A DNA stretch of 64,000 nucleotides from Sulfuricurvum sp. (GTDB lineage Bacteria; Campylobacterota; Campylobacteria; Campylobacterales; Sulfurimonadaceae), in NCBI GenBank assembly GCA_030693335.1, contig JAUYAU010000003.1, positions 1 through 64,000 on the forward strand, given 5' to 3'. Positions 9,546 to 19,473 of this stretch are shown here, piece by piece; position 1 is the first letter of the stretch; the number at the start of each line of letters is the position of its first letter. The notes under the pieces are model-generated. The model was not told the origin of the DNA and ran no database searches. It worked only from the letters and a program-made list of their open reading frames with translations. A program made the translations under genes and the position numbers.

Positions 9546-12254
9546 CTATAAGCACTCTATAAATTTAACACTCTCGCTATTGAGGTAACAAAGGTACCCT
9601 TTTACAGCCCCTCCGCCAAGAGCACGCACCGCATCCATGTACATTCTGACTTGAATTTTATGGGAGAAACTCTCTTCTTGTCCTGTTTTGTAATCAATAA
9701 CCGTCCAGTCCCCTGCATCGTTTTGTATGAGCAAATCGATAATACGCATCTCGCCATTATAAACAAAGCGCTTTTCTTTATAGTGTCTTCCTTGCGTCAA
9801 ACTGCAAAACGTTTCATCACGCAGCAATGTTTCCAATGCCGTACGCATCGTATCAATCTTTTCGATCCCGATACGTGCACCGTATCGCTTTCGCGCCGAT
9901 TCGATCGCGGCATGTATCGACTCATGTTTGAAATCACCCATCATCTCTAATGCATAGTGAAGTGCCAGACCATACTGTACCGCATCGTAGTCAAAGGTCT
10001 CATTGGATTCTGGGCGCACCACCTCATCTTGTCTTCCGTATGATACAGCCTTATATTCTAAGGGTATAAGGGGCTGAGAGACTTGAACGCAAGAAGAATC
10101 AAATACTTTTTCTCCCCAACTTCCCTCAACAAGATCCAAAGGAGCAAACCAAGACGATTTTGGCTTGGCAATGATACTTAGCGATTGAACCGCTCGGGTC
10201 AAGGCTACATACAAGCCGTTAAGCTGATCTTCCCCCTCCAATGCTCTTTCCTTCTCCAGCGCCGATTTATACGCAATATCCAACTCTTCGCGCCCTTTGA
10301 TACGGTAAAAAAGGCGTGAGAGTGTCAAACCCTCATACTCATAGACGATACTCTCTCCACGGCTTCTAGGTATCCCTAAACGATCCAAAACGAGTACGTG
10401 CTCAAACTCCAACCCTTTGGATTTATGCACCGTCATAATCCGTATTCCGTGAAGATCGCTTTGGGGAGCATTCGCATCAAGACGTTCTATCTCAAAAGCT
10501 ACCTCTTCTATGTCACGATAATGATTGAGATGCTCGATAAACATCATGGCACTCTTATCACCGATTCTGTGATCGCGTATAAAACGGATAGCTTGTTCTT
10601 GTAAATCAGTAATGGTAACAGGCTGTATCGTTTGGGCTTCAACACCCAAAAGCGCAGCGCAGTTATGCCGATAAATATCGGCTCTAAAATAACAATAGCG
10701 TAAGTACTCAATCACCGTTTTGACACTTCGCTGATGTATCAGTTTAGACGTCGCTTCACTCACCACATCCAAATCGTGTTCTTCGAGATATTCCTGAAGC
10801 TTTCCGGCATCGGAATTCGTCACACACAAAACAGCTATTTCATCTTGAGGAATCCCCATTTTGACCAATCGCTCGATCCCCTCGTAAACCGTTTTAACTG
10901 GTTCTTCACTGATAAGGACTTCAACGTATCCCCCTTTTTTGGATGAGGGCGAGCCTTGTGGAATATAGCGTTTCATTTTGGCGCCAAAGACTCGGTTTAC
11001 AAATTCCACCACGCACGCTTTTGAGCGGTAATTCACCTCCAGTGGACGTACCTGCACCTCAAAATGGTTGGCAACATCATAAAACAAAGCGCTCACTCCG
11101 CCGCGAAAGCGGTAAATTGATTGTTTCACATCCCCGACGAAGAAAAAACTTCCCCCCTCATTGATCCCTTTTCCCGCACTGATCTCTTCGATCAAAGGAC
11201 GCAGAATATCAAACTGGATGACGCTTGTATCCTGAAATTCATCCAGCAACAGGTGTTTCATTCTTGCATCAAGCCGAAAATAGAGAAATTCGCTCTCCAC
11301 CTTCCCCCGTAACAAAGAGTGAACCATCAGTGTAATATCATCAAAGGTCAGCTCTTGGTTTTGCCGCATGATGGAGTTGCGGCTTTTAATGTAAATATTT
11401 AAAAGGCGAAACACTCCTGCAAAAAAATCAGATTCACGGGATTGCATTTGCATTCGTACCGTCTCCTGAAGACTTTGCAAAAGCTCGTCCATCTTTGGTT
11501 CATAGATTTTTTTGAAATCCCAATACTCCATACTCGGTTTAAAAAGCCACGTTTTACCCAAAAGCGCATCGTAATTTTCAATCTCCATCGTTTTGCGGGC
11601 ACGGTCACTCAGCGGCTTGCTCAATACAAGCGATGAGAGTTCAGATGCAAGATGCATCGCGTGCTCATACGGATTAAAAGAGAGGCTCACACTGGGCAGC
11701 TCTATGGCCTCAAACTCTTTGTGTTTCGCATACAGCTGTGCGAGGAGTATAAAAATATCGTCCAAACGTTTACTGCTCAATTGCGCCAATCCAACCAGCG
11801 ATCCCATCTCACCCGATACTTCTATTTCATGTAAAAAGCGCTCTAAAAATTTTTGCTCATGATGCGACGTCGCGGCCGTGTAAGTGGGCATAATCCCCGC
11901 ATTGAGAGCAAATTTACGCAAAATGGTTCCAAAAAACTTATCAATCGTCGAAATGTGAATATCACTGCGCAAAAAACGAAGCAATATTTTTTTTCGCTGT
12001 GCCAGTATCTCTTGCTCACTTATCCCGCTTAAACGTGCTATTTCTGCCAACTCCGCACGTGTTTCTAGGGCTTTAAGTGTTTCAATCACCCGCTGCATCA
12101 TCTCGTTGGCCGCTTTGTTCGTAAACGTCAATGCCGTAATGGATGAGGGGTCTTCACCCATAAAGAGAAGGCTTAGATATCGAACAACCAAGTTAAACGT
12201 TTTACCGCTTCCGGCACTCGCTTCATACGCTAAAAAAGGCTCAAACTGGCTCAT
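9546..12254 (-). CDS. addA: AddA/RecB-like UvrD-family helicase-nuclease
   Basis: A 902-residue superfamily 1 DNA helicase with a C-terminal nuclease. Walker A is EASAGSGKTFN near residue 12, Walker B is LLLDEFQDTS, motif VI region is MTVHKSKGLEFEHVLVLDR, and the PD-(D/E)XK nuclease is seen as MRIIDLLIQNDAGDWTVIDYKTGQEE near the C terminus. It should resect double-strand breaks for RecA loading. It is shorter than Bacillus AddA, as is usual in this phylum. It starts directly after the addB stop, so the two subunits are co-expressed. Confidence 0.9.
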   Translation of the reverse strand: MSQFEPFLAYEASAGSGKTFNLVVRYLSLLFMGEDPSSITALTFTNKAANEMMQRVIETLKALETRAELAEIARLSGISEQEILAQRKKILLRFLRSDIHISTIDKFFGTILRKFALNAGIMPTYTAATSHHEQKFLERFLHEIEVSGEMGSLVGLAQLSSKRLDDIFILLAQLYAKHKEFEAIELPSVSLSFNPYEHAMHLASELSSLVLSKPLSDRARKTMEIENYDALLGKTWLFKPSMEYWDFKKIYEPKMDELLQSLQETVRMQMQSRESDFFAGVFRLLNIYIKSRNSIMRQNQELTFDDITLMVHSLLRGKVESEFLYFRLDARMKHLLLDEFQDTSVIQFDILRPLIEEISAGKGINEGGSFFFVGDVKQSIYRFRGGVSALFYDVANHFEVQVRPLEVNYRSKACVVEFVNRVFGAKMKRYIPQGSPSSKKGGYVEVLISEEPVKTVYEGIERLVKMGIPQDEIAVLCVTNSDAGKLQEYLEEHDLDVVSEATSKLIHQRSVKTVIEYLRYCYFRADIYRHNCAALLGVEAQTIQPVTITDLQEQAIRFIRDHRIGDKSAMMFIEHLNHYRDIEEVAFEIERLDANAPQSDLHGIRIMTVHKSKGLEFEHVLVLDRLGIPRSRGESIVYEYEGLTLSRLFYRIKGREELDIAYKSALEKERALEGEDQLNGLYVALTRAVQSLSIIAKPKSSWFAPLDLVEGSWGEKVFDSSCVQVSQPLIPLEYKAVSYGRQDEVVRPESNETFDYDAVQYGLALHYALEMMGDFKHESIHAAIESARKRYGARIGIEKIDTMRTALETLLRDETFCSLTQGRHYKEKRFVYNGEMRIIDLLIQNDAGDWTVIDYKTGQEESFSHKIQVRMYMDAVRALGGGAVKGYLCYLNSESVKFIECL

Positions 12255-14591
12255 CTACAGCTCCCTCTCGCACAAGGTCGCGTAAGTACAATGTCGACAG
12301 CGACTTAGATCCTCACACATCTCCCACACCCACTGTCGATTTTCCGCCAGCATTTGCAAGATCTCTTTGAGTTTTTGCGTTTTTGACTCCAAAAATTGCT
12401 CGAACTCAATTTTTCCCGTATTCAGATCATACACCCCGCATCGCACCACTGTTCCTAAGGGTGCTGCAAGAAGCGCATAGATACTCAATTGATAATCCAC
12501 ATCCTCCTCACGCACATCGCTGGAAGTCGATGCGTATTTACCCGTTTTATAATCCAGTACTTCCAATCCCTCAAGTGTGCGATCAATACGATCAATACGT
12601 CCTGTTAAACGTATCCCGCAAACAAGTACATCTCCCTCTTTTTCACGATAGGCTACTCGCACCCCTTGTGCAAAACGCTGACGCTCCTGATCGTAAAAAG
12701 GGGTCAGTTTTTCAAGCCACAGATCTTGGACGTAACGCTGCATCACATCCTGCAGTTCATACTCGCGTAATGTGCTTCCCAAAGCTTCTTTGATTTGTAA
12801 TGCACTTTCATAATAGTCTGCGGAAGCGTACACTTTTTCAAGCGCGCCATGCAGCCGATTGCCGATTTCACGCTCTCGTGAAAGGTCTTGTGCTTTTTCG
12901 TGCTCTTTTATTTTTTCGATGTATTTGTAATAAAATTGGCGCTTACACGTTAAAAAACTTTTTAATCCGCTGGCGGAGAGGGGATGGGCGGTAAAATCGT
13001 ATTGCGTCTCAATGTGACGTTTTACCCGCTCTTTAAAAACAGGCTTAGGCAAAATAGCGCTTCCATAATCGACCTGCGCTTCGCGCATCTGGATCCCTAA
13101 TTGCAATAAAAAGCGTGAGGGTACCGACTCTGAATTTTGGACACAGGAAATCGCCACTTCTTGCGCACGGTTAAACAACATCCAATAATAGTGCTTTTGC
13201 AAGGATTCACGATCAGCAGTTGTCGGAAGGTCGGCTATTTTACGTATTTGCGTATTCAAAAAAAGATCTTTTTGACTTCGATGCGGAACATACCCCTCAT
13301 TGAAATCAACCACCAATACCCCGTCAAAACTCATCCCGCGTGTTTCCAGTAATCCCATAACCGTGATCTTCCCCCCGCCGACATCATCAATGGAGCGGCT
13401 TTTGACACGGTTAAAGAAGATTCGCATTGCCAATTTGAATTCGACGCCCCCTAAAGCCGTAGAAAGAGGCTTGAAACGATTTAATTCTTCAATCAGGATC
13501 TCTTTTACCTCGGTACTGTGCGTCTCCTCACTCATCATCGCGCACAGATGTTCTAAATCGGCATAGTTAAACGGCAGATAATAATGGGCTTTGACCCAAT
13601 CCATCAAATCCGAAGAGATTTTAGAGACACGGGCTTTATTCTCAGCACTGTGCTCTTCCAAATAAAGCTCAATAGCATCGATGGTCCGAATCGTCGAGTC
13701 ATCCTTCATCGAAGTCCCCATCGCAAAGTTAAAATTATTCTCTTCATCAAACAATTTCACATACTGCGCAAACTGCTCATCAGGAACCACAACCACAATA
13801 GCACGCGGATCAATCCCCTTTTCAACCATCTGCACAATTTTCGCTTTGACGAAGCCCACTTGTATGAGGCGATTGTGAAATACCTCACACGTAACATGAC
13901 TCAAGGTATCAATGGGAACCGATTCAAGGATTTGCAACGTACTCAACGAAAATACAACACGATGTCCCTCTTCTATATCCAGAGACAACTCTCTGAGGCG
14001 TTGTGACATCTTTTCATTATAGGCTGTCGCGTGATATACACACTGAAGTGATACGACTGCCGCACACGCTTCCAATACCTTCAGCTCGTATCGGCTCAAA
14101 TACCCCTCAATATGCACCGTGATAACATCAAATTCTTTTAAGTAGCCCTCATAAATAGTCACTGTCGATTTTGAAAAAATTGGATCGCTCCAACGGTTCG
14201 CCACGGCTACATCACGATACCTGTGGAGAAGATGCTTCAAAATAGCAATATGTTCTTCGTACTCTCCATAGATATCCGCATTTTCCAAAGCACTAATATC
14301 CACCATCTCACCGCTGAGCTCTTCAAAAAAACGAAAAATGTATTGGGAGTTTTGAATGAAAGTAAAAAAGTTACGCTCAATATTTAAACTGGCGAAAGAA
14401 GAAAAATCAGAAGCTTCATGCAGACCTAGAAGGCGTAAATCATCATCCGGAACAATGACATTGTTTGAGAGAATAACCCGATCTAAAAAATCACTCATTC
14501 CTATAAAGGTAGGTAAAAAACCTTCACTGCACCCCTCTAAGGCATTACGAATCGCACGTGATGTCGGAAATACGACACAGGTGCGTTGCAT
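12255..14591 (-). CDS. addB: AddB-like PD-(D/E)XK nuclease subunit
   Basis: A 778-residue partner of AddA. The N-terminal region resembles an inactivated helicase (MQRTCVVFPTSRAIRNAL with no complete Walker A). The nuclease domain is at the end: SASGLKSFLTCKRQFYYKYI with the first cysteine, GRIDRIDRTLEGLEVLDYKTGKY with catalytic residues, and CRHCTYATLC completing the four-cysteine iron-sulfur staple seen in AddB. The ATG overlaps the FixH-like gene stop (TAATG). Together with AddA it forms the break-repair complex. Confidence 0.88.
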   Translation of the reverse strand: MQRTCVVFPTSRAIRNALEGCSEGFLPTFIGMSDFLDRVILSNNVIVPDDDLRLLGLHEASDFSSFASLNIERNFFTFIQNSQYIFRFFEELSGEMVDISALENADIYGEYEEHIAILKHLLHRYRDVAVANRWSDPIFSKSTVTIYEGYLKEFDVITVHIEGYLSRYELKVLEACAAVVSLQCVYHATAYNEKMSQRLRELSLDIEEGHRVVFSLSTLQILESVPIDTLSHVTCEVFHNRLIQVGFVKAKIVQMVEKGIDPRAIVVVVPDEQFAQYVKLFDEENNFNFAMGTSMKDDSTIRTIDAIELYLEEHSAENKARVSKISSDLMDWVKAHYYLPFNYADLEHLCAMMSEETHSTEVKEILIEELNRFKPLSTALGGVEFKLAMRIFFNRVKSRSIDDVGGGKITVMGLLETRGMSFDGVLVVDFNEGYVPHRSQKDLFLNTQIRKIADLPTTADRESLQKHYYWMLFNRAQEVAISCVQNSESVPSRFLLQLGIQMREAQVDYGSAILPKPVFKERVKRHIETQYDFTAHPLSASGLKSFLTCKRQFYYKYIEKIKEHEKAQDLSREREIGNRLHGALEKVYASADYYESALQIKEALGSTLREYELQDVMQRYVQDLWLEKLTPFYDQERQRFAQGVRVAYREKEGDVLVCGIRLTGRIDRIDRTLEGLEVLDYKTGKYASTSSDVREEDVDYQLSIYALLAAPLGTVVRCGVYDLNTGKIEFEQFLESKTQKLKEILQMLAENRQWVWEMCEDLSRCRHCTYATLCEREL

Positions 14592-15106
14592 TAAAACTCA
14601 AAAGTATTAGGATTTCGGGTATCAGCTTTGAGGTTATAATAGCGCTGATCTTCACCAATCGTTATTTTTGCCATAATATCCCATCGCCCTGCTTTTGGCA
14701 AGTCAATAGCTTTAAATGTATAAACTCCATTTTTAATAACAGGTTTATCGAGTGTAATGTCAAGCTTGGTAGTATCAGGTCGTGTTAACACAACACTTAG
14801 ATTTGCATCTTCAATCGGATTACCAGATTTGTCTTTGATCGTATAGGCAATAACCGATTTTTTATCACTGATTTGCGGAGTCAAAAAAGTGATGCTGTAT
14901 TTTTTATCAAATTCAATCTTAGCATTAATAATTTCATTAACATTTTTATCATATTCATGATAATTTTGCATCCCGTATCCTGACATTTCAACAGGATTAT
15001 TAAGTGCTACTTTAATCGTTGCTACCGAAAACCCAATTACTATGATAATAGATATACTAATAATCCATGGCCATTTTTTGCCTGCATCTTTATTTATCAT
15101 ATTCAC
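14591..15106 (-). CDS. FixH-like membrane protein of the cbb3 operon
   Basis: A 171-residue protein with one N-terminal membrane segment (WPWIISISIIIVIGFSVATIKVAL) and a periplasmic domain with KYSITFLTP, GNPIEDANLSVVLTRPD and PKAGRWDIMAKI, the pattern of the FixH/CcoH family that helps assemble or stabilise cytochrome cbb3 oxidase. The likely start is GTG at 15106, overlapping the preceding stop as GTGA. Its place at the end of the cco operon supports the role. The family assignment is by pattern and context. Confidence 0.7.
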   Translation of the reverse strand: MNMINKDAGKKWPWIISISIIIVIGFSVATIKVALNNPVEMSGYGMQNYHEYDKNVNEIINAKIEFDKKYSITFLTPQISDKKSVIAYTIKDKSGNPIEDANLSVVLTRPDTTKLDITLDKPVIKNGVYTFKAIDLPKAGRWDIMAKITIGEDQRYYNLKADTRNPNTFEF

Positions 15107-15801
15107 TTTGCTCTCTTTTTTTTAAAATAACGACCCCAAACATATCTCCCTAATGCAAATAATATCGTGCCATAAAATATTGCTCGCAAAATATCAATAA
15201 ATGTCTGACTCTCACTTCCCGCAGAAGTACTCAATGTTTGACCTCTCGAGGCCGCAATTTGTTCTGCCGTATCCGCATAACCGTTAAACATTCCTACTGC
15301 ATATTTTTTAACGATATCTTCGCCCTTTGCACGTTCAGCTAAAATGGGCAACACCGTTCCGCCACTGTTTGATAGCAACTCTTTTACTTCATCATAACTT
15401 CGTGCAAATAATATACTGCTCACAACTGCCCCAATAAAAGTCGCATTAGGGTTAAGAATCTGTGCCTTATTAAAATCCTTATATAAAGACGTTGGACGCG
15501 CCAAAATATCAACTTGCTTTTGTAATTCAACAAACGTCATGATGACCGTAGGCCCATCGGTCTGTGCACTAATTTGTTTTTCAAAATCACTGATTGACTG
15601 ATTGTTTTCCAAATCACGAACCATAACCAAATAAAGAGAAACACCAGTCTTTGCCTTAAGCTCAGAACCTACTGTCTCAATTTGTTTCGTAAAATTCGGA
15701 TTCTTAACAACATCATCTTTGTATAAAAATTCTGCTTGAAGTGACGCGCAAAGAAAGAATAACCAAAAGGTGAGGGCCGCAAGCCCTCGCGAGAATAACA
15801 A
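15103..15801 (-). CDS. Secreted/anchored TPM-domain-like protein of the cbb3 operon
   Basis: About 232 residues: a signal sequence (LAALTFWLFFLCASLQA), an extracytoplasmic domain that resembles TPM domains (the pattern LKAKTGVSLYLVMVRDL and TVIMTFVELQKQVDILA), and a C-terminal membrane segment with a basic tail (GRYVWGRYFKKKRAK). TPM domains occur in photosystem repair proteins and oxidase-linked envelope proteins. I chose TTG at 15801, 6 nt after AAGGGA; a TTG at 15822 extends the frame but has no SD. The function is unknown; placement suggests a part in oxidase maturation. Confidence 0.6.
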   Translation of the reverse strand: MLFSRGLAALTFWLFFLCASLQAEFLYKDDVVKNPNFTKQIETVGSELKAKTGVSLYLVMVRDLENNQSISDFEKQISAQTDGPTVIMTFVELQKQVDILARPTSLYKDFNKAQILNPNATFIGAVVSSILFARSYDEVKELLSNSGGTVLPILAERAKGEDIVKKYAVGMFNGYADTAEQIAASRGQTLSTSAGSESQTFIDILRAIFYGTILFALGRYVWGRYFKKKRAK

Positions 15802-15811
15802 CCGCTGTCCC

Positions 15812-15913
15812 TTATCCAACAAATAAATGGTTAGGAGTTAAAACAGCATACAATGTAACGATAGCTGAAATGATCAAGGCCACAGTAATAAGTTTACCCA
15901 TGATATTTGACAT
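15812..15913 (-). CDS. 33-residue single-span membrane peptide in the cbb3 operon
   Basis: An ORF too short for most gene callers. It starts with MSNIMGKLITVALI, runs as one hydrophobic helix (about residues 8-26) and ends PNHLFVG. A strong AAGGAG SD lies 6 nt before the ATG, and the ATG shares one base with the TAA of the DUF4006 gene (TAATG). It resembles in size and topology the tiny single-span cbb3 subunits such as CcoM of Pseudomonas, but I see no clear sequence match. Its strong SD, coupling and clean helix make translation likely. Confidence 0.65.
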   Translation of the reverse strand: MSNIMGKLITVALIISAIVTLYAVLTPNHLFVG

Positions 15914-16131
15914 TACTTATCTCCTTCTTTAACATCAACCATATGTTTAGCATTTTGGGCACTGAACATTTTGATTTCTTTTTCGTTATCAATTTTATAG
16001 AAATTGCTTGCATTCTTTTGTTGAGTAAAGATTGATGCAACCGTTAATACCGCTACAATCGAGAGCAACAAAACGACCGCAATGAGCATTCCAGTGATCC
16101 CGTCTAATGCAAAGATGCTACGATTTTCCAT
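15913..16131 (-). CDS. DUF4006 family membrane protein
   Basis: A 72-residue protein with one membrane segment (GITGMLIAVVLLLSIVAVLTVASIFT) and a short polar tail. It sits directly after ccoP and from memory matches the small DUF4006 protein found behind ccoNOQP in Campylobacterota. No enzymatic motif is visible; a role in oxidase assembly or stability is inferred from its constant position. Confidence 0.75.
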   Translation of the reverse strand: MENRSIFALDGITGMLIAVVLLLSIVAVLTVASIFTQQKNASNFYKIDNEKEIKMFSAQNAKHMVDVKEGDK

Positions 16132-16141
16132 TATTCGCTCC

Positions 16142-17062
16142 TTATTTTTGACTCAAGCTTGATACGTATGCACCAATTGCTTTTATTTGTATCTCTGTAA
16201 GATTGTTAAATGCCGGCATTGTACCGATTGCACCTTTTTTACCGTCTTTTAATACGGACGCAACCATATCAGGATCCATTGCGTTAAGTTTTGGGGCAAC
16301 CATTGGCATACCTTCACCATTTTCACCATGACACGTATTACAGGTACCTGCTGCAAATGCTGCTTTACCTGCTGCATCATCGGCTTTAAATCCATTTGCA
16401 ACATAGTTGGAAACTGCATCTATTTGTACAGGATCTTGCAGCAACATTGGTGGCATTCCACCAGGGAAACTGGTTTTCATGTAATTGCCGCCATTGTTAA
16501 TCACATACTTGACCGATTCAGCACTAATACGCTCATGCAGATCCGATGCTTTTCCATCCATACCGTCGGCTTGAAGACCATGGCATGCTGCACAGTTGGA
16601 GTTAAATGCCGATTCACCCATCTCTTTTAAATATTCAGGGTCTTTTACTTTTTCTGCATATTTTGCTTCAAACTTTTTATCATGAGAAGTAACTTCTTTG
16701 TTGTATTCACCAATTTGCGAATAACTGCCCAGTGGGTACCCTGCTAACATATACCAAATCGCCCAAACGACCAATCCAAAATAAATAACTGAGTAACCAA
16801 ATGGTGCTTCATTTTTGTATTCGCCGATGCCATCCCAATTCTCATCTGCAAGTTTTCCACTCGCAGTGTCATTTTGCATCTGCTTTACAAATTTTACAAC
16901 CACAACAGTAGTTATAACGAACAGTGCTACTGCACCTGAAATGGCCAGTTTATTAACCCAATCGCCTTCTCCACCCATACCGCCGGCACCACCGACAGCA
17001 AGATAGGTAGCACCAGCCATTAACAGTAAGAATGCAATAGCGGCAAGTATAGTCTTATTCAT
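16142..17062 (-). CDS. ccoP: Cytochrome cbb3 oxidase diheme subunit III
   Basis: A 306-residue membrane-anchored diheme cytochrome c. Two membrane segments lie in residues 1-110, and heme sites are CAACH at 157-161 and CNTCH at 241-245. It passes electrons from the bc1 complex or soluble cytochrome c to CcoO and CcoN. The GGEGD and GGMGG glycine-rich N terminus is seen in campylobacterial CcoP. A CAGGAGG SD precedes the ATG, which follows directly on the ccoQ stop. Confidence 0.97.
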   Translation of the reverse strand: MNKTILAAIAFLLLMAGATYLAVGGAGGMGGEGDWVNKLAISGAVALFVITTVVVVKFVKQMQNDTASGKLADENWDGIGEYKNEAPFGYSVIYFGLVVWAIWYMLAGYPLGSYSQIGEYNKEVTSHDKKFEAKYAEKVKDPEYLKEMGESAFNSNCAACHGLQADGMDGKASDLHERISAESVKYVINNGGNYMKTSFPGGMPPMLLQDPVQIDAVSNYVANGFKADDAAGKAAFAAGTCNTCHGENGEGMPMVAPKLNAMDPDMVASVLKDGKKGAIGTMPAFNNLTEIQIKAIGAYVSSLSQK

Positions 17063-17275
17063 TTATGCCTCCTGTTTTATATCATCGTTTTTTGAGATCT
17101 TTTCGACCGGTTGATCGCTGATCTCATCATGGAGCACTAAATTGCTGTACTTTTCATAATCTCTCGTTCCTTTTTTTTGGTCACTGTACAGATGATAAAT
17201 ATAACCATACAAAACTGCCACCAAAATGGCAGTTAGAATAAAGAATCCGTAAGCTTGAAGAGTTGCAATATCCAC
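17063..17275 (-). CDS. ccoQ: Cytochrome cbb3 oxidase subunit IV
   Basis: About 70 residues: one membrane segment (LQAYGFFILTAILVAVLYGYIYHLY) followed by a charged cytoplasmic tail, the CcoQ layout. CcoQ stabilises the cbb3 complex. The start is GTG at 17275, 5 nt after AAGGGG; an earlier GTG abuts the SD. It lies between ccoO and ccoP as usual. Confidence 0.88.
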   Translation of the reverse strand: MDIATLQAYGFFILTAILVAVLYGYIYHLYSDQKKGTRDYEKYSNLVLHDEISDQPVEKISKNDDIKQEA

Positions 17276-17284
17276 GCTCACCCC

Positions 17285-17977
17285 TTATTTCAATCGGTTA
17301 AGATAAGCGATCAGAGCAACTATTTCAGGAATTTTTCCTGCCGCAACTGCATCTTTAACTGCTTGATCTTTCATATCTGCTACCACTACTTTTGCTTCTT
17401 CAAGAGCAGAAGCATGAGCCCCATCTAAAGAGTCAGCCAGTGCTACAGTTTGCGTAGAACCATCTGCCGTTGGAAGCGGCTTGTTGTATGGAACCGCAAA
17501 CAATTGCTTGATCGTTAATTGCTCTGCATACGCTGTATCAACGTCTGCAATGTTCTTAAACAACCAAGGATATTTAGGCATGATTGATCCTGGGACAACT
17601 TCTTCTGGATCTCTCATATGGTTCTCATGCCAATCAGTTGTACGATAGTTTCCTACACGCATCAAATCAGGGCCTGTACGTTTTGATCCCCACAGGAATG
17701 GACGATCATATGCATATTCACCACTCTTTGAATAACTACCATAACGATCTGTTTCCGATTTAAATGGACGAATCAACTGTGAATGACATCCATTACAGTT
17801 ATTTTTTATATACACAAGGCGACCCGTAAGCTCAAGCGTAGAATAAGGCTTCGCGCCGACAATCGGGCGAGATGCTTGCGCAAAGTTTGGCAGGATCTCA
17901 ACGAGACCCGCAAACGCGATAACAACAAAGACAGCAACCGCAAAAAAGAACGGGTTTTTCTCTAACCAGTGAAACAT
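17285..17977 (-). CDS. ccoO: Cytochrome cbb3 oxidase monoheme subunit II
   Basis: A 230-residue membrane-anchored cytochrome c. One N-terminal membrane helix (residues 9-28) precedes heme site CNGCH at 61-65; RPFKSETDRYGSYSKSGEYAYDRPFLWGSKRTGPDL is the highly conserved CcoO block, and the SIMPKYPWLF methionine is the distal heme ligand. It sits 14 nt after ccoN. Confidence 0.97.
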   Translation of the reverse strand: MFHWLEKNPFFFAVAVFVVIAFAGLVEILPNFAQASRPIVGAKPYSTLELTGRLVYIKNNCNGCHSQLIRPFKSETDRYGSYSKSGEYAYDRPFLWGSKRTGPDLMRVGNYRTTDWHENHMRDPEEVVPGSIMPKYPWLFKNIADVDTAYAEQLTIKQLFAVPYNKPLPTADGSTQTVALADSLDGAHASALEEAKVVVADMKDQAVKDAVAAGKIPEIVALIAYLNRLK

Positions 17978-17991
17978 TTTCCCCTCCTTAA

Positions 17992-19473
17992 TTATGCGCC
18001 CATAGGCGTTGCGTTTTGAAGTTCATTTTCTTCAACCACACGAGAGCTTGTCATTGTTTTGTACATATTGTACGCAAACATAAACATACCTATTAGGTAC
18101 AAAGTACCACCTACTGCACGAATAATATAATATGGGTGCAATGCAACTACAGAATCGATAAATGAATATGCCAAATTACCGAATTCATCGTATGCACGCC
18201 ACATCATCCCTTGAGTAATACCTGCAATCCACATGGATGTGAAATACAAAATAACTCCAAGTGTTTGAATCCAAAACTGAGTATTCATCAATGATTTTGA
18301 ATAAATTTCACGTTTAAACATACGAGGTGCCATGTGAAACAATGCGCCGATAACCATAAATCCAACCCAACCTAGTGCACCGTCATGCACGTGACCGATG
18401 ATCCAATCCGTAAAGTGCGCCAATGCATTAACCGATTTGATTGCTTGAATCGGACCTTCTAATGTAGAGAACATATAGAATGTCGTTGCCATTACCATGA
18501 ATTTAATCAATGGACTTGCCGCAACCTGCTGCCATTCACCCTTCATGGTTAACATCATATTAATCGCAGAACCCCATGATGGAAGAATAAGAACAACCGA
18601 GAATACAGAACCCATTGTTTGCATCCAGTCAGGAACTGTCGAAAACAACAAGTGGTGTCCGCCAGCCCAAATGTAAACAAACATCAAGCCCCAAAACCCA
18701 AGTAAAGACATTTTATATGAATAAACGGCTTGTCCAGATTCTTTAGGCAAGAAATAGTAACTCATTGCAACGATAGGTGTTGTCAAAACAAATGCTACCG
18801 CATTGTGCCCAAACCACCACTGTACCAGAGCGTCATTTGTCCCTGCATACATGGAAACCGAGTGATACCAATTTCCTATCCCGCCTGAAATAATGAATGT
18901 TGGCATTTCAGCATTGTTGAAAATGTGAAGCATCGCAACCGCCAAAAACGTAGCGATAAAATACCAAATAGAAATATAAAGTGTTTTTTCACGACGGATC
19001 CCGATAAGACCGAAGATACTGATACCCCATAGCACCCATACAACAACGATTCCCAAATCAATAGGCCATTCAAACTCTGAATACTCTTTTGAACTGGTAA
19101 TCCCCAATTGCAATCCTATAACGATGACAACCGATGCTGCCATGTAAATCCAAAAATGGGCTTTACCAATAAACATCAAGAATTTCGATTCTGCCATGGA
19201 TACTTTCAAGACACGTTGCCCGATATAGTACCATGCTGACCATACTGCACTTAGGACAAATCCATAAATAACACTATCCGTATGAATCGCACGCAAACGA
19301 CCGAAGTTTGTATACTCAGCCAAATCCATTCCTAAAATGTAGTTAAACTGTGGAAATGCCATTTGCCACGCTAACACCACTCCTGCAAGCATACCAGCAA
19401 CACCGACAAATATAGCATTGTACATAAACAGTTTGGCAACTGTATAGTCATACTCTAATGGACGATTTTCCAT
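17992..19473 (-). CDS. ccoN: Cytochrome cbb3 oxidase catalytic subunit I
   Basis: A 493-residue heme-copper oxidase subunit with about 12 membrane helices. Metal-binding histidines are seen in RLRAIHTDSVIYG, WWFGHNAVAFVLTTP, WAGGHHLLFSTVPDW and HVHDGALGWVGFM. It reduces O2 at low concentration and pumps protons, the expected terminal oxidase of a microaerophile. The ATG has a near-perfect AAGGAGG SD. The 233-nt leader (19474-19706) is A+T-rich and holds the carA terminator; I could not fix a promoter or FNR-type box in it. Confidence 0.98.
   Translation of the reverse strand: MENRPLEYDYTVAKLFMYNAIFVGVAGMLAGVVLAWQMAFPQFNYILGMDLAEYTNFGRLRAIHTDSVIYGFVLSAVWSAWYYIGQRVLKVSMAESKFLMFIGKAHFWIYMAASVVIVIGLQLGITSSKEYSEFEWPIDLGIVVVWVLWGISIFGLIGIRREKTLYISIWYFIATFLAVAMLHIFNNAEMPTFIISGGIGNWYHSVSMYAGTNDALVQWWFGHNAVAFVLTTPIVAMSYYFLPKESGQAVYSYKMSLLGFWGLMFVYIWAGGHHLLFSTVPDWMQTMGSVFSVVLILPSWGSAINMMLTMKGEWQQVAASPLIKFMVMATTFYMFSTLEGPIQAIKSVNALAHFTDWIIGHVHDGALGWVGFMVIGALFHMAPRMFKREIYSKSLMNTQFWIQTLGVILYFTSMWIAGITQGMMWRAYDEFGNLAYSFIDSVVALHPYYIIRAVGGTLYLIGMFMFAYNMYKTMTSSRVVEENELQNATPMGA

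Follow-up and report, generated by a model that had tools for sequence, protein, structure and literature searches.

A 33-residue membrane peptide of the cbb3 oxidase operon in Sulfuricurvum sp. is an ortholog of CcoY of C. jejuni

The 33-codon open reading frame (ORF) located between ccoX and ccoZ in the cbb3 oxidase operon of Sulfuricurvum sp. is a real and strongly conserved gene, the ortholog of ccoY (cj1485c) of C. jejuni. It was found in a window of 64,000 nucleotides, which is the whole stretch of DNA analysed here. Campylobacterota use the cbb3 enzyme as their high-affinity terminal oxidase, and no solved structure was found for the small accessory proteins of the oxidase in this phylum. 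In C. jejuni, Cj1485 has 33 residues and one transmembrane (TM) helix and is encoded between Cj1486, a DUF4006 protein, and Cj1484; in 2021 Cj1486, Cj1485 and Cj1484 were named CcoX, CcoY and CcoZ, and all three influence cbb3 activity (PMC8267372). The initial annotation had proposed a small cbb3 subunit of Campylobacterota overlooked because of its length. The observation of a conserved one-helix gene in the cbb3 operon is true, but the protein had already been named, and annotations of C. jejuni have long included its ortholog as cj1485c, so that within the phylum the gene was not missed. What is added here is the phylum-wide picture, a second sequence class and a flaw in the published mutant.

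The ccoY gene and its operon

The gene order in the window is ccoNOQPXYZH (Table 1), which bears out the placement of the peptide inside the cbb3 operon: it is flanked by ccoNOQP and ccoX on one side and by ccoZ and then ccoH on the other. The ORF is real and belongs to the minus strand, a detail left out when it was first described, and the plus strand of 15812-15913 contains stop codons. The strong Shine-Dalgarno (SD) site and the one-base overlap reported at its start can be read directly from the DNA, the latter as TAATG, in which the stop codon TAA of the DUF4006 gene (15915-15913) shares a base with the ATG of the peptide (15913-15911). At the other end, the stop codon TAA of the peptide contributes its last part to the sequence AAGGGA, 6 nt before TTG 15801. 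The mechanically defined ORF of ccoZ begins with TTG 15822, inside ccoY; judging from these signals, TTG 15801 behind AAGGGA is the more likely start, giving a CcoZ of 232 aa and no overlap with ccoY. Translation of ccoY would probably be coupled to that of ccoX upstream and of ccoZ downstream.

Table 1. Features of the cbb3 oxidase operon in the window.
Feature	Position	Strand	Basis
ccoN	17992..19473	-	COX1; closest solved chains include cbb3 oxidases
ccoO	17285..17977	-	PF02433
ccoQ	17063..17281	-	TIGR02736 above cut-off
ccoP	16142..17062	-	FixP_N and Cytochrome_CBB3
ccoX (DUF4006), 72 aa	15913..16131	-	PF13179, E 3.3e-29; 43% identity to C. jejuni Cj1486
Shine-Dalgarno AAGGAG of ccoY	15921..15926	-	7 nt before ATG, inside the end of ccoX
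ccoY ortholog, 33 aa, MSNIMGKLITVALIISAIVTLYAVLTPNHLFVG	15812..15913	-	ORF, alignment of relatives, codon selection, shuffled controls
ccoZ	15103..15822	-	C. jejuni CcoZ at 26% identity (E 5e-13); TPM match sub-threshold
ccoH (FixH)	14591..15106	-	PF05751, E 9.2e-14

The single membrane helix of the earlier description is predicted both by hydropathy, with a maximum of 2.47 over residues 8-26 (19-residue window), and by AlphaFold, in which a single helix spans residues 2-25 (mean pLDDT 96 for residues 11-20) and is followed by an unstructured tail; the charges of the peptide are few and lie near the N-terminus. No known family of Pfam or NCBIfam was matched by the peptide, the matches of a relative to YtzI and YonT being far below cut-off. 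Among solved structures no chain related to the peptide was found, and none holding either the peptide or DUF4006. CcoQ is likewise a small one-helix protein of the same operon, but it is encoded by a separate gene, and the peptide has no match to its model TIGR02736.

As C. jejuni reference we used genome G102, in which five out of five published primers searched map at the expected places, and from which Cj1485 was read as MSKALEYLIVIGLVAAAAITAWSVLTVNHLHIG. The window peptide aligns with it over 33/33 residues with 42% identity and no gaps (E 2e-7 against a 7-kb target), and the near-invariant residues are common to both. The corresponding identities are 43% for CcoX, 42% for CcoP, 26% for CcoZ, which in C. 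jejuni has a TPM domain (PMC8267372), and 28% for CcoH; CcoY is therefore about as conserved as CcoX and CcoP, and more so than CcoZ and CcoH. The two peptides, though from different genera, also share their length, the single helix and the position right after ccoX and before ccoZ, and differ in the tail, P-N-H-L-F-V-G in the window and V-N-H-L-H-I-G in C. jejuni, as well as in the ccoX/ccoY overlap, TAATG in the former and ATGA in the latter.

Beyond ccoH, the minus strand at 9546-14591 encodes an AddB-like PD-(D/E)XK nuclease (778 aa) and a RecB-like helicase (902 aa; NF010485). A possible DNA helicase gene, cj1482c, also comes after ccoH in C. jejuni (PMC8267372), so this neighbourhood may be old.

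Coding evidence and distribution in Campylobacterota

Codon-level purifying selection, proposed at the outset as a check on the ORF, was found. In 77 distinct relatives dN/dS is 0.134 in the frame of the peptide versus 1.13 and 2.77 in the other two, and codon positions 1, 2 and 3 differ at rates of 0.30, 0.15 and 0.59, respectively; the peptide is under purifying selection in its own frame only. A qualifying ORF, defined by a length of 27-40 aa, an SD-like site and a hydropathy of at least 1.6, follows the DUF4006 gene in 60/60 loci (59 by script and one, L016, by direct reading) and in only 4 of 1200 shuffled controls. These controls and the per-frame dN/dS rule out a chance ORF and coding in another frame. 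One could still suppose that what counts about the ORF is the relay of translation from ccoX to ccoZ and not its protein, as the TAATG and ATGA overlaps and the SD sites lying within neighbouring frames might suggest; nevertheless, the selection acts on the amino acids (dN/dS 0.13) and some residues are near-invariant throughout the phylum, which makes this explanation highly improbable. The main text of a ribosome profiling study of C. jejuni (PMC11955535) does not name Cj1485.

When the tail motif was used to scan the genomes of 84,980 species, 138 relatives were confirmed, of which 80 were kept, all from Campylobacterota where the group is named and a few labelled only as 'bacterium'. Conservation of the frame in the cco regions of relatives, on which the initial annotation had made its proposal depend, is complete in this set: all 80 named relatives carry the peptide directly after DUF4006, with an ATG start, an SD-like site and a length of 29-34 codons (stop excluded), and the order X-Y-Z-H is kept in nearly all of the loci. 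The nearest named relatives are mostly Sulfuricurvum, with peptides mostly 67-76% identical.

With a first profile, a match at E ≤0.05 was obtained in 288 of the 397 genomes of the phylum, and among the misses listed most came from one family (f2), by inference Helicobacteraceae. In this family the place of CcoY after DUF4006 is occupied, in 30/30 loci read (L144-L173), by a one-helix ORF of 33-38 aa with a good ribosome site and a pattern that is roughly MKxTxLEKxL...SIxIxFIP(N/D)xxLxLV; one such peptide was tested and matched no Pfam or NCBIfam family. Profile comparison of this class with the N-H-L class gave a probability of 76-82% (E about 1e-5). The score of 23.5 is higher than in any of 200 column shuffles (maximum 14.2), which does not favour unrelated peptides. 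Shuffling the ends alone gave a lower score in 199 of 200 cases, but the score hardly drops when only the helix columns are shuffled; homology thus relies on the ends and on position, the helix being uninformative. On this basis we take these peptides as divergent CcoY, and propose them as the unrecognised CcoY counterpart of the second family. In one genus of the same family (L154, L159 and L166) the divergent peptide ends in PGKVFLG; as they retain the G with which the N-H-L type ends, these peptides may be intermediate between the two classes.

DUF4006 is absent from 12 of 298 genomes, of which 11 also lack FixO; the remaining one is a fragmented assembly. None of the 12 has a convincing CcoY, the sole match (genome G004, E 0.04) being at chance level, and it follows that ccoY accompanies the oxidase. 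The presence of the gene behind ccoX across the phylum and its absence from the 11 genomes without the oxidase are new here, and place a little-studied, already named peptide in most of Campylobacterota. Tentatively, and with somewhat less than even confidence, CcoX, CcoY and CcoZ could be seen as a phylum-specific accessory module, permanent in cbb3 or in a Qcr-Cco supercomplex, with two classes of CcoY, N-H-L and the divergent F-I-P-N/D (by inference of Helicobacteraceae), the tail of the latter having changed along with its partner.

The published ccoY mutant of C. jejuni

In C. jejuni, an allele deleting ccoY lowers cbb3 activity without abolishing it (PMC8267372). In this organism ccoY and ccoZ overlap as ATGA (read from the reference genome, loci L014/L176), and, counting from the A of the ccoZ ATG, the right-hand primer used to delete cj1485c starts 4 nt further downstream, so that the ATG of ccoZ is also lost in the ccoY deletion; the cj1486c (ccoX) allele likewise takes out the ATG of ccoY. 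Immediately ahead of the junction, the end of the resistance cassette supplies an in-frame GTG from which CcoZ (or CcoY) may to some extent still be translated, although the ribosome site of this GTG is poorly placed (primer letters, PMC8267372). The cassette promoter answers the matter of transcription, not the loss of a start codon. Complementation of ccoY is not reported in PMC8267372, where the four uses of 'complement' concern ccoNOQP and copper, and the effects of the ccoY and ccoZ deletions are alike in kind, reduced and not abolished. Since the allele removes the ccoZ start, ccoY complementation is not reported and the phenotype is like that of the ccoZ deletion, the role of CcoY itself is not cleanly shown: the importance of the protein is plausible but unproven, the need for it in full cbb3 activity being published for C. 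jejuni only, with this confounded allele.

Relation to CcoM and possible function of the conserved tail

The initial annotation had likened the peptide to CcoM, which in Pseudomonas stutzeri is a tiny one-helix protein of the cbb3 oxidase, as CcoY is by prediction. The likeness holds for size and setting and does not extend to sequence. The peptide does not match the CcoM model NF041600 (cut-off 40 bits), which is also passed by none of 101 genomes of the phylum, and profile comparison with P. stutzeri CcoM (PDB 5djq chain N) is empty, at a probability of 0.2%; membership of CcoM is rejected on these two results. Moreover, the positive charges of CcoM are at the C-terminus (RDAHKK) and those of CcoY near the N-terminus; the charges being at the other end, an orientation of CcoY opposite to that of CcoM is suggested. 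Hence, a Campylobacterota version of CcoM, related to it by descent, is a very unlikely identity for the peptide, even if both have 33-36 aa and one helix and are linked to cbb3 oxidase.

Among the relatives G33 is invariant and A17, V24, T26, N28, H29 and L30 are near-invariant, conservation being highest in the tail, T26-x-N28-H29-L30-x-x-G33, outside the predicted helix. This would fit a peptide whose helix serves as anchor and whose tail does the docking. With its few charges near the N-terminus, and following the positive-inside rule, CcoY would be inserted with a cytoplasmic N-terminus, cross the membrane once and expose the tail at the periplasmic face. There, the T-x-N-H-L-x-x-G tail could find its packing partner in the oxidase or in CcoX/CcoH/CcoZ, and the docked tail would stabilise the assembled complex or help its assembly. 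We consider it probable that the window peptide, as the CcoY of a ccoNOQPXYZH operon, is a single-pass protein working in this way.

The activity loss published for C. jejuni fits a stabilising subunit and an assembly factor alike. In the first case CcoY, though of independent origin, would act like CcoM as a stabilising one-helix subunit, a reading for and against which we see about equal weight. Its binding to the oxidase is putative; however, it shares with CcoM the size class and the enzyme, and its deletion lowers activity (PMC8267372). In addition, terminal oxidases repeatedly gain such peptides, as described for CioY of C. jejuni (34 aa, CioAB oxidase) in the main text of PMC11955535 and as in CydX of E. 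coli, tiny one-helix components too, which belong to bd-type oxidases and are likened to CcoY by description and not by sequence. In the second case, which appears rather unlikely, CcoY would be an assembly factor of the CcoX/CcoH/CcoZ module or a link in a Qcr-Cco supercomplex and not a stoichiometric oxidase subunit. In favour of this, ccoY is always found between ccoX and ccoZ, the components of the complex reported by mass spectrometry are CcoN, O, P, H, Z and X, CcoY not being among them, and CcoZ has been proposed as supercomplex link (PMC8267372). Against it, a membrane peptide of 33 residues easily goes unnoticed in tryptic mass spectrometry. The residues we offer for testing are N28, H29, L30 and G33.
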